A stretch of 41,230 bases of DNA from Bacillota bacterium (lineage in GTDB: Bacteria > Bacillota > Clostridia > Oscillospirales > Oscillospiraceae): the NCBI GenBank assembly GCA_029098045.1, contig JAQXNO010000011.1, positions 1 to 41,230 of the forward strand. The letters run 5' to 3'. The notes below the pieces were generated by a model. It saw nothing but the letters and a program-made list of their open reading frames with translations, had not been told where the DNA came from and ran no database searches. Numbering within the stretch: the first letter of the stretch is position 1; every line of letters starts with the position of its first letter. Position numbers and translations under genes: made by a program. Of this stretch, positions 29,668-34,127 are shown one piece after another.

Positions 29668-31962
29668 ATGAAACGTTGGGTATCGCTGCTTTTGGCAATC
29701 GTCATATGTCTGAGCCTTGCGGCCTGTGGGGGAGAAATGGGAACTGCCCCGGAACAGACGGCCCTCCACAACCTGAACGATATGGTTGTGGAAGGCTCCG
29801 GGGAGTATATCGTGCCGGAAGAATATCCGATGCTGTTTACGGAACGGCTTTTGGACGATGAATCGATCTCCAGACTGCAAAATAAACAGCTGGATGCAGT
29901 GCGCGCAGCGATTTCGACACCTGCTGATTTTGCGGCATGGCTGGATACACAGCAGGCACAGTATTACAGCAATGTGATCTGCAATGACTATGGGCAGCGC
30001 AGATTCGGCACGGAGTATTCCCAAAGCTGCTACGGGGGTATGCTGTTCACCCCTGCAGTTGCCGGCCTTGCTGCATATATCCTTGGGGATGATATTCCCG
30101 GAATGGGGATGGTGGCAGTCAACATGGCTTACGGGGATGGGCTGGTGCTCTGCGGCAATGTGTTTCCTGTGGATGACGGCTACTATGTGTTCTCTCTGGA
30201 CTGCCTGTCCCAGCGGTGGCAGGAGACAGCAAAATCCAATCGGATCATGAAAGAAGTGTTCCCGCTGATTCAAATCACGGGGCTGTCGGATCTGATTCCG
30301 TTCTGCGGCGGAAAGGACGATATTTCTTCCCGTGGCGGAACACCCGCACAAGGGTTTTATTTCCTCGCAGATCAAGAGATTGTAATGGACTTGGATGCCG
30401 GCTACTACATCCCACAGGATCCCAGTCTGGTGATTGAGTTCTACCGTAATGATGCATGCTTTGCTGCATATGGGGCTGAGGGAGCGGAACACATCAAGCC
30501 TGAGAATATCGGCAGCTATTGCCTGTCCGACCTGCTTGGCGGAACGACGCTGACGGCGGAGGAGGCCTATGAGTTGCTGGATATGGAGCCGGAGCAGGTC
30601 AAGGAACGGGTCAAAACCGCAGCCGATGTGCTGATGTATATGCTGGCAGCCAATATCGGTGACTGCGGTGGCTGCTACTGCGATGAAATTGACGGTCAAA
30701 TCTGGCACTCCAATCTGTCTGCCTTTGGCGTCATGGAGCAGCGCCTCAGCAACTGCGGCGCTTCTGCCAACCTTGCAAATTACCTGCTGGAGGGCGACTA
30801 TGAGGAAGTGGGCTTCATCCTCCACGGCTATTACATTGGGCAGGGCGGCGGCCACGTTTACAATTACATTCGCCATGAGGGTAAGTATTACATCGTGGAT
30901 TTCAGCTGGTATATTTTCAACGGATACAGGCCGGAGAATGATTTCCCGGTGATGGTACTGAACCGCCTGGAGGATTTTGGCCCCAGATGCGCGGAGCTGT
31001 ACGGCCCGGTCTCCATGGTCATCGCCCATACTTCCACGGGACAGCATCTGCCCAATGTGTTTGACGATGCAAACCGGATTTATGCGGTGCCCAAGGGGGC
31101 GCAGTATACCATTCTGTATCAGGACAATAGCCCGAGTGCCTATCAGGTGGACGAGTATCCGCTGGATCAGAGCAAGCTGGACTGGACCGTATTTCGAAGC
31201 GAAATCAGTGAACGTCCCTCCCGAAATTATGGAAAGGTGACGGCAGCATTCGACATCAAGCCTGAAAACATCGGTCAGTACCAACTGTCCGATTTGCTTG
31301 GCGGAGCAACGCTGACGGCGGAGGAGGCCTATGATCTGCTGGACATGGAGCCGGAGCAGGTCAGGGAACGGGTCAAAACCGCGGCCGATATGCTGATGTA
31401 TATGCTGGCCGGTAAGATGGGTGACAACGGCGGCTGCTACTGCGATTTGATTGACGGACAGACTTGGCACTCCAATTTCACCGCCTTTAAGGTGATGGAG
31501 CAGCGGCTGGGGAACTGCGGTTCTTTTGCCAACCTTGCAAATTATCTGCTGGAGGGTGACTATGAGGAAGTGGGCTTCATCCTCCACGGCTATTACATTG
31601 GGCAGGGCGGCGGCCACGTTTACAATTACATTCGCCATGAGGGCAAGTACTACATCGTGGATTTCAGCTGGTATATGTTTAACGGATACATGCCGGAGAA
31701 TGATTTCCCGGTGATGGTACTGAACCGCCTGGAGGATTTTGGCCCCAGATGCGCGGAGCTGTACGGCCCGGTCTCCATGGTCATCGCCCATACCTCCACG
31801 GGACAGCATCTGCCCAATGTGTTTGACGATGCAAACCGGATTTATGCGGTGCCCAAGGGGGCGCAGTATACCATTCTGTATCAGGACAATAGCCCGGATG
31901 CCTATCAGGTGGGCGAGTATCCGCTGAACCAGAACAAGCTGGACTGGACAAAATTCGAATAA
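29668..31962 (+). CDS. Lipoprotein with two tandem transglutaminase-like domains
   Basis: MKRWVSLLLAIVICLSLAACGG lipobox; two copies of NCG..ANLANYLLEGDYEEVGFILHGYYIGQGGGHVYNYIRHEGKYYIVDFSWY (C-H-D triad). Confidence 0.75.
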   Translation: MKRWVSLLLAIVICLSLAACGGEMGTAPEQTALHNLNDMVVEGSGEYIVPEEYPMLFTERLLDDESISRLQNKQLDAVRAAISTPADFAAWLDTQQAQYYSNVICNDYGQRRFGTEYSQSCYGGMLFTPAVAGLAAYILGDDIPGMGMVAVNMAYGDGLVLCGNVFPVDDGYYVFSLDCLSQRWQETAKSNRIMKEVFPLIQITGLSDLIPFCGGKDDISSRGGTPAQGFYFLADQEIVMDLDAGYYIPQDPSLVIEFYRNDACFAAYGAEGAEHIKPENIGSYCLSDLLGGTTLTAEEAYELLDMEPEQVKERVKTAADVLMYMLAANIGDCGGCYCDEIDGQIWHSNLSAFGVMEQRLSNCGASANLANYLLEGDYEEVGFILHGYYIGQGGGHVYNYIRHEGKYYIVDFSWYIFNGYRPENDFPVMVLNRLEDFGPRCAELYGPVSMVIAHTSTGQHLPNVFDDANRIYAVPKGAQYTILYQDNSPSAYQVDEYPLDQSKLDWTVFRSEISERPSRNYGKVTAAFDIKPENIGQYQLSDLLGGATLTAEEAYDLLDMEPEQVRERVKTAADMLMYMLAGKMGDNGGCYCDLIDGQTWHSNFTAFKVMEQRLGNCGSFANLANYLLEGDYEEVGFILHGYYIGQGGGHVYNYIRHEGKYYIVDFSWYMFNGYMPENDFPVMVLNRLEDFGPRCAELYGPVSMVIAHTSTGQHLPNVFDDANRIYAVPKGAQYTILYQDNSPDAYQVGEYPLNQNKLDWTKFE
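30491..31191 (+). repeat. Internal gene repeat, copy 1 (period 762 bp)
   Basis: Aligned with copy 2 at 31253-31962 at constant offset 762. Confidence 0.9.
31253..31962 (+). repeat. Internal gene repeat, copy 2 (period 762 bp)
   Basis: See copy 1. Confidence 0.9.
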
Positions 31963-32018: not shown

Positions 32019-32033
32019 TTTATGAGTTCTAAA

Positions 32034-32270
32034 TGAGCAACTGCGACTGATCTCTGAATGTCATTGTAAGGCGCGCCGTTACCCTAAGAATAAGAAATGG
32101 TTCCTGAAAAAGTATTCAGAGGCTGAAAAATCCAGAATTGAAGAATTCGATAATGAAGCCGCCACCGAAAAGGTGCAAAGTATGAGTCGGTCATGGCACC
32201 TCTGGTTAAGTCTAATCCGGCAGACAGCGAACTTGCCATCGCTGGTTGATATGAATATCAGGCATAGATT
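32034..32270 (+). pseudogene. Possible gene remnant between two terminators
   Basis: Readable frame without a convincing start: LRLISECHCKARRYPKNKKWFLKKYSEAEKSRIEEFDNEAATEKV.. Confidence 0.25.
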
Positions 32271-32273
32271 AAG

Positions 32274-32308
32274 GCCTCCCTTTTGATTGAAAAAGGGAGG
32301 CTATTTTT
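32274..32308 (+). terminator. Rho-independent terminator
   Basis: gcctccctttt gattga aaaagggaggc + taTTTTT. Confidence 0.85.
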
Positions 32309-32333
32309 GTTTTGAATGTGTATTTTCAAAAAA

Positions 32334-32660
32334 TCAAATGGACTGCTCAGATAGCCATGTAAGGAAGCTTTTTGCCAAGTTGAGTTTCTTCGCGCTCATT
32401 CCACGCATCAACTCTGCAACATCCCTCCATTCATCGCTATCATAACGAACGCTTCCTGTCAAAAACGTGTCAGGAGTGGTATCCAGCGCGAGCGCCAATT
32501 TCATTACTACTTCCAGTGAGGGGATGGATGTAGCACGCTCAATGCAGGAAAGATATTTATCGTTAATCCCAGCGCGTTCGCAGACTTCAGCCTGCTTCAA
32601 ACCAAGTTCCTTTCGTCTTTGGGCAATCCGCTTTCCAATTTGAGAGTAATCCAATTCCAT
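32334..32660 (-). CDS. XRE-family HTH regulator
   Basis: IGKRIAQRRKELGLKQAEVCERAGINDKYLSCIERATSIPSLEVVMKLALALD. Confidence 0.92.
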   Translation of the reverse strand: MELDYSQIGKRIAQRRKELGLKQAEVCERAGINDKYLSCIERATSIPSLEVVMKLALALDTTPDTFLTGSVRYDSDEWRDVAELMRGMSAKKLNLAKSFLTWLSEQSI

Positions 32661-32735
32661 AAAAAGCGCCTCCCTTTGCACATATTTTACCGAATTGAAA
32701 CGACAGGTAAAACAATCCAAAAGTCGTAATTCCAC

Positions 32736-32764
32736 TTGACATAAGAATAATGCGCAATTATAAT
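32736..32764 (+). promoter_or_regulatory. Perfect consensus sigma-A promoter
   Basis: TTGACA-17 bp-TATAAT. Confidence 0.9.
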
Positions 32765-32875
32765 TGAATTATCCACTTTTGGACATAATGCGCAAGAGAG
32801 TGGAGCAGACTGTATACTTTTTAGATAATAATGTATGGGACCATATCGTCTGCAATTTGGAAAGGAGAATGCATT

Positions 32876-33418
32876 ATGGCAATCCGTAGAGTAACCGGCG
32901 TTATGAGAATTGTTGCAAATTCTCGTCGCGAACTTCCAATGGAAGTGAACCAATTTATACAGCAAAATGATTCTATTGCTTATCAAGTTCACGCAACAGT
33001 AACTTATAGTTTGAGTCCTGAAGCACCGATTGGCCCTTTAGGAAATTGGTCGCAAACGGTAACGTGGACGGCAGAGGGAGATGATAATGATCCTGTGTTC
33101 AAGCAGTGGTTTGATGCGTATAATGCGCAAAGTAGCCAACCTCAGAGTGCAGGTTGCTATGTAGCTACTGCTGTTTATGGCTCTTACGACTGTCCTCAGG
33201 TATGGACTCTTCGCCGCTTCCGCGATAACACACTGGCTGAAACTTGGTATGGCCGTGCTTTTATTCGTACCTATTACGCAATCTCGCCCACTCTCGTCAA
33301 ATGGTTTGGGAACACGGAGTGGTTTAAGAGAATGTGGAAAGGCAAACTTGACCGTCTGGTTGCTAATCTGAATGCTTCTGGTGTTGCCAATACACCTTAT
33401 GAAGATAAGGTTTGGTGA
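32876..33418 (+). CDS. CFI-box (CFI-box-CTERM-like) protein
   Basis: CYVATAVYGSYDCPQVWTLRRFRDNTLAETWYGRAFIRTYYAISPTLVKWFG; aaaggag SD. Confidence 0.8.
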   Translation: MAIRRVTGVMRIVANSRRELPMEVNQFIQQNDSIAYQVHATVTYSLSPEAPIGPLGNWSQTVTWTAEGDDNDPVFKQWFDAYNAQSSQPQSAGCYVATAVYGSYDCPQVWTLRRFRDNTLAETWYGRAFIRTYYAISPTLVKWFGNTEWFKRMWKGKLDRLVANLNASGVANTPYEDKVW

Positions 33419-33421
33419 TTT

Positions 33422-33883
33422 ATGAGTGCACCTAAGATTTCTGCACAGGAACAGAAAATTCTGCGCGGCAATGCAAAAGCGGAATTGGAACGAATGGAAG
33501 CATGCCTTGCTGATGAGAATACTGCTCAAATACTTGATGCATTCAAAAACAAGTTTAATATCTGCGAAACAGTATATAAGGTTATCTTCGCAGAGCATCA
33601 GAAACGCAAGCAGAAGAATGTGAGTGGTTATCTAAAGGTGGATATGAAACAGGTGCCGCATGCCCTGAACTTTGCTGGATATTCTTTTGAAAAAACCGAC
33701 TTGAATGAGCTCTTTGGCGCATCAGGTAAAAAAGGTACAACGGTCAAGAAGCTTCGCGATTCAGTTACTCACGGTAATGACCCCAAAGCCGTGAATGAGA
33801 TCGTTGCGCGCAAGGAAGAATTATTTGGTTATATGGATTCTTTCTTATCTGTGATTCGTACATTTGATGATGCTGCTGCGTAA
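33422..33883 (+). CDS. Small alpha-helical protein with HEPN-like Rx4H motif
   Basis: VKKLRDSVTHGND; predicted helical; starts 3 nt after the CFI-box stop. Confidence 0.6.
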   Translation: MSAPKISAQEQKILRGNAKAELERMEACLADENTAQILDAFKNKFNICETVYKVIFAEHQKRKQKNVSGYLKVDMKQVPHALNFAGYSFEKTDLNELFGASGKKGTTVKKLRDSVTHGNDPKAVNEIVARKEELFGYMDSFLSVIRTFDDAAA

Positions 33884-33893
33884 CCCTATACAT

Positions 33894-33922
33894 TTCCCTC
33901 CCCACCATGGGGAGGGAATTTC
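33894..33922 (+). terminator. Terminator of the CFI-box operon
   Basis: ttccctcccc/ggggagggaa + TTTCT. Confidence 0.65.
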
Positions 33923-33967: not shown

Positions 33968-33996
33968 TTGAGAAAAGTTCGAATTTTTGATATAAT
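33968..33996 (+). promoter_or_regulatory. Sigma-A promoter with no obvious ORF downstream
   Basis: TTGAGA-17 bp-TATAAT. Confidence 0.65.
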
Positions 33997-34002
33997 ATAT
34001 AT

Positions 34003-34127
34003 AGAAAGTCGAGAAATGAAAAATAATTCTAAAAGGAGATCTGATAAAGGAAGATATTCCTGCAATGCGTGTTTGATTTTCATAAAAATTACCCCTTCTG
34101 TATGTCGCAACAGAAGGGGTTTTGTAT
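34003..34127 (+). ncRNA. Candidate small RNA (promoter-terminator pair)
   Basis: From the 33968 promoter to terminator accccttctgt/acagaaggggt + tttgt at about 34090-34124. Confidence 0.4.

Follow-up and report, generated by a model that had tools for sequence, protein, structure and literature searches.

A CFI-box and HEPN-like gene pair beside a divergent XRE regulator: a candidate defence or toxin module of gut bacteria

Results

The window analyzed here, a 41,230-nucleotide stretch of an Oscillospiraceae genome (assembly of 1.89 Mb in 202 contigs, 79% complete), carries a compact AT-rich cassette at 32274–33922, where G+C content falls to 0.415–0.44 against ~0.55 in the surroundings. A 108-residue XRE/HTH_3 regulator (32334–32660, minus strand; Pfam HTH_3, 7.1e-13) diverges from a plus-strand operon of two genes. 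Gene 1 (32876–33418) encodes a 180-residue protein with an orphan N-terminal domain (residues 1–92) and a CFI-box-CTERM domain (residues 94–180), and gene 2 (33422–33883) encodes a 153-residue HEPN-like protein. Only 3 nt separate the gene 1 stop from the gene 2 start, and a sigma-70 promoter, TTGACA-17-TATAAT (32736–32764, plus strand), precedes the pair and agrees with consensus at 12 of 12 positions. The AT-rich composition, divergent regulator, perfect promoter and tight gene spacing had all been described in an initial sequence-only reading and were borne out. Its picture of an insert bounded by terminators survived in part: hairpins fitting the terminator consensus lie at the left border (32273–32302, plus strand) and 3′ of gene 2 (33894–33918, plus strand), but since both read on the plus strand, the consensus does not make the left one a terminator for the XRE gene, which lies on the minus strand.

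On the right, a genome of the same genus that lacks the cassette is homologous from 34084 onward through yebC, so that the sequence left of 34084 is not orthologous in that genome. The precise left edge or an empty site could not be set because the left-flank genes lie on other contigs in sister genomes, and neither direct-repeat borders nor an integrase or tRNA were found at the cassette borders. In another genome of the genus, a type II restriction enzyme and a D12-class methylase adjoin yebC within a 37% G+C island (locus L120, 2913–5031; L numbers denote compared loci), suggesting that this flank is a recipient of foreign cargo; other relatives carry ordinary genes beside yebC, and synteny leftward is lost. 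Between gene 2 and yebC, at 33968–34125, lies a promoter-like TTGAGA-17-TATAAT whose −10 is extended. The 123 nt behind it fold strongly (z −5.1), close with the hairpin on the yebC side and may represent a small RNA or read-out transcript. A non-coding RNA antitoxin at this position was considered, given the promoter-like site and strong fold, and rejected; the terminator half is common to the same-genus genome without the cassette, which assigns the promoter-fold element to yebC. On the other side, the interval 32022–32276 between a lipoprotein gene and the cassette resembles a reading frame in decay, interrupted by stops and shifts of frame. The lipoprotein-like protein itself (29668–31962) contains an internal duplication, the second copy of which matches a transglutaminase-like domain (PF04473).

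The control region contains a repeated 11-mer, ATAATGCGCAA. The entire 1.89-Mb assembly contains three copies of it, always on the same strand and always inside the cassette, and the reversed control pattern has 0 copies in the assembly. Two copies sit at the promoter, one within the −35/−10 spacer (O1, 32747–32757, plus strand) and one 38 nt further, directly downstream of the −10 (O2, 32785–32795, plus strand). Judged by this placement and rarity, these are candidate operators to which the XRE protein likely binds. The third copy (O3, 33120–33130, plus strand), a candidate auxiliary operator, falls within the coding sequence of gene 1 and may be coincidental. Within the XRE transcript, the ribosome-binding region (AAAGGGAGGCGC) has a complement on the 3′ side (32661–32677 with 32292–32308), a possible self-pairing that would mask the start.

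Association with a divergent XRE gene recurs well outside the window. Among 50 CFI loci it lies upstream of the CFI-box gene in ten, nine of them at 75–141 bp; a same-strand XRE gene in that position was found in none, and XRE ORFs number 13 across all 50 loci. One further divergent case lies within the genus (L163). Because the arrangement extends to distant CFI-box subtypes (L079 and L080), it does not simply reflect common descent of one locus. In the XRE–CFI operons of L079, L080 and L163, a third gene begins with MGLFDxLFG or MNFFQKLFK and forms a recurring small partner that is not HEPN-like.

Gene 2 is a small helical protein whose KLRDSVTHG (RDSVTH) motif had been taken at the outset for the Rx4–6H signature of HEPN RNases. 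Published HEPN features comprise Rx4–6H, a polar residue (N, D or H) directly after the R, and Ex3[KR] in helix 2 (PMC3710099). Each has a counterpart here: R112–H117, D113 immediately following R112, and E49-xxx-K53 inside helix 32–62. All five residues (E49, K53, R112, D113 and H117) are invariant in seven homologues, down to 25% identity. The AlphaFold2 model (pLDDT 86) places helices at residues 8–28, 32–62, 78–84, 91–98, 108–117, 121–129 and 131–152. In the HEPN fold, four helices are arranged with an insert between the second and third, the motif ending helix 3, and an often kinked helix 4. The model follows this arrangement, with an insert after 32–62, a helix 108–117 ending in the motif (R112-D113-xxx-H117), and a broken last helix 121–152, the comparison being of helix order and not of superposed coordinates.

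Database searches were less supportive. Foldseek returned 0 significant matches, HEPN or other, for the gene 2 model against PDB and BFVD, and the Pfam HEPN profile PF18737 matched gene 2 at E 0.021, below the family cut-off, and just 2 of its 7 relatives. These results would suit a protein that is not HEPN at all, with RDxxTH present by chance or for structural reasons in some other helical protein and the cassette doing something else. We consider that improbable, as the five published positions are invariant to 25% identity and lie in the right helices, and profile–profile comparison points the other way. Aligned by hhalign to five genomic PF18737 HEPN proteins, the gene 2 family scored 32.4 (probability 43%), far above 60 shuffles (12.8 ± 2.1, maximum 18) and four unrelated real families used as decoys (SPFH, membrane, zinc-ribbon and CFI; 11–16). 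This alignment places R112/H117 on the RNxxxH of PF18737 and spans the motif and last helix, without helix 2. Motif anatomy, invariance and helix order, joined weakly by the profile–profile comparison and by no structure match, make it highly probable that gene 2 is a HEPN protein. To this extent the first assignment is supported.

Purifying selection acts on gene 2, with dN/dS of about 0.05–0.24 in pairs where dS could be estimated. A search of 84,980 species genomes, which reaches close relatives only, recovered five relatives of gene 2, and one more was found separately at 25% identity; none were found in plasmids and viral contigs.

Gene 1 ends, as first proposed, in a CFI-box: its C-terminus matches NF041770 (CFI_box_CTERM) over 69 of 69 positions at 79.5 bits (cut-off 40; E=1.2e-22). 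Its N-terminal domain, predicted at low confidence as strands with one helix (AF2, pLDDT 55), has no significant relative in 295 genomes of the order or 56 of the genus; two viral-contig matches of 25 residues each proved spurious. No Pfam domain was detected in gene 1, including the MNT nucleotidyltransferase. Compared between loci, the last 86 residues are near-constant and the remainder is entirely different, with the orphan domain in the window, a zinc ribbon and helical repeats in L004–L006, L009 and L012, and other contents in L013–L015. From L004 to L005, dN is 0.01 in the CFI domain and 0.18 in gene 2. A constant tail and a variable head beside a faster-changing effector suggest that the tail serves docking or localisation and the head sensing.

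The CFI tail helices are amphipathic and basic, making membrane contact possible. The domain is also borne by prepilin-like, cold-shock, CAP and calcium-binding proteins, so a CFI-box alone is no marker of defence. In L083 (genome G237) it ends type IV prepilin-like proteins, encoded as two oppositely oriented copies. Plasmids of Rhodanobacter, Marinobacter and Microbulbifer (L142, L143 and L144) carry the tail on a short protein that reads as Cas4/RecB-like, and in the latter two a PD-(D/E)XK-type protein follows directly, as though a single nuclease had been divided.

The pairing of the two genes is conserved. Co-occurrence, the absence of which would have counted against the sequence-only reading, was found in four loci. 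In L004, L005 and L006, from rumen or gut Clostridia, gene 2 relatives stand directly behind a CFI-box gene that carries a different other domain, the spacing ranging from a 4-nt overlap to roughly 40 nt at the widest. No CFI-box gene lies near the gene 2 relative in 3 of 7 cases, two of them in conjugative-element contexts. The XRE–CFI–Rx4H layout itself reappears in L060 with a different protein (RNAFAHG). Further pairs occur on two prophage-like contigs. In L012, genes for an SPFH protein, a small protein that is likely membrane-bound, an RNAIAHG protein and a CFI-box protein precede what look like phage scaffold and capsid genes, and the opposite flank holds an Abi_2 gene and a resolvase; in L014, a CFI-box gene and an RDRLIH gene adjoin one that looks like a terminase. 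These phage calls come from reading the sequences and not from family searches. In L015, a CFI-box gene and an RNGVAHG gene are flanked by a SNF2-type helicase on one side and by the Mod and Res genes of a type III system on the other.

Leaving out the loci found through gene 2, a suitably placed Rx4H was present in 5 of 20 CFI-box neighbour genes, against 3/189 for the remaining ORFs (p=2.3e-4); removal of the gene 2 family gave 4/18 versus 3/182 (p=1.4e-3). The motif had been spotted by eye before the count, and the viral collection yielded no relatives of the HEPN-like partners of L012, L014 and L015, so the association is a strong suggestion and not proof. Among CFI-box genes of eight plasmids, no adjacent gene examined carried a HEPN-like motif in a position like that in HEPN proteins. 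Defence genes were seen nearby at L012 (Abi_2) and L015 (type III restriction–modification). The majority of CFI-box genes in the order stand without a HEPN neighbour.

Such a layout invites comparison with a plain type II toxin–antitoxin system, in which gene 2 would be a HEPN toxin, gene 1 its binding antitoxin and the XRE protein a co-regulator, with stabilisation of a plasmid or island, and not defence against phage, as the main effect. The 3-nt gap, the ATGA overlaps seen at L004 and at L012, control by a repressor and a HEPN effector are all typical of these systems, and gene 2 relatives are present on conjugative elements. However, those copies lack a CFI gene, CFI-box genes mostly occur without HEPN, and the CFI-box partner is elsewhere large and domain-rich (351–503 residues), unlike antitoxins; we regard this explanation as unlikely.

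The SPFH genes raise another, that of an envelope or general stress operon in which the CFI-box protein would be a membrane-stress adaptor and gene 2 a non-catalytic helical partner or stress-activated RNase. Operons in L004, L005 and L012 encode a Band_7_1/SPFH zinc-ribbon protein along with a small one that is likely a membrane protein, resembling pspA-ydjGHI of B. subtilis, whose YdjI is an SPFH protein (PMC8581546), and the basic amphipathic CFI helices would suit such a role. The cassette in the window, however, has neither an SPFH nor a membrane gene, the catalytic residues of gene 2 are invariant, and the scattered distribution, with hits in just 3 of 295 genomes at an E of 0.001 and one of these marginal, fits mobile cargo better than a house-keeping stress response. 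A stress operon is in our estimation improbable.

Discussion

We favour, with evenly balanced confidence, a repressed two-gene HEPN-RNase module with a CFI-box partner, resembling abortive-infection or toxin–partner systems and probably acquired as an operon. The divergent XRE protein would hold the operon low, most likely through the ATAATGCGCAA sites in and behind the promoter, until infection or stress lifts repression or the restraint imposed by gene 1. Gene 2 would act as a metal-independent dimeric HEPN RNase with R112 and H117 as its active site, assisted by E49 and D113; once freed, it would cut cellular or invader RNA and growth would stop. Gene 1 would be its co-translated partner, whose near-invariant CFI-box tail docks with the effector or the membrane and whose variable head detects infection or stress on the envelope, or else restrains the RNase. 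The defence side of this proposal gains from genomic context, namely the prophages, the Abi_2 neighbour, the type III restriction–modification operon and the type II system beside yebC in a sister species.

A broader interpretation, possible but held only tentatively, is an undescribed, modular family of defence systems in gut Clostridia and the prophages they carry. A CFI-box sensor under XRE repression, its sensing head replaceable, would be coupled to interchangeable effectors and sometimes to an SPFH membrane platform. The effectors would be several unrelated HEPN RNases and, on plasmids, perhaps other nucleases.

The CFI-box is a named and widespread domain, also found on plasmids of Pseudomonadota and Bacteroidota. 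Its repeated link to XRE repressors and HEPN-like RNases, in some cases within prophages or a restriction locus, offers a first testable role for it, and points to a candidate gut-bacterial immune or toxin module missing from current catalogues. The initial inference of a repressor-controlled pair with a possible RNase is now better supported by sequence, and we regard the cassette as a probable HEPN-effector module under repressor control, its partner domain being previously undescribed.

PADLOC gave weak matches only for gene 2 and its relatives and none for gene 1, with no catalogued system convincing, and an open-literature search found no paper using the CFI-box name. The best-matching family is the MAE_28990/MAE_18760-like HEPN (PF18737), which shares an Rx4H ending one helix followed by a long last helix; gene 2 has RDxxTH in about 150 residues, whereas PF18737 proteins have RNxxAH in 210 residues and are accompanied by ParB/methylase or ParA-like genes instead of a CFI-box partner (PMC3710099). 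HEPN/MNT systems (HepT/MntA) likewise place a small HEPN protein in a two-gene operon, but gene 1 lacks the MNT nucleotidyltransferase domain and the cassette is under apparent XRE control. AbiF/Abi_2 of Clostridia is also a prophage-borne Rx4H HEPN system, and the L012 pair has an Abi_2 gene in its vicinity; neither the Abi_2 domain nor the abiF RNA motif was found for the cassette. AbiF is neutralised by an upstream non-coding RNA (PMC12373285), whereas the partner here is a protein. That partner is a clear member of the CFI-box-CTERM proteins (NF041770), here tied to an XRE regulator and a HEPN-like gene.
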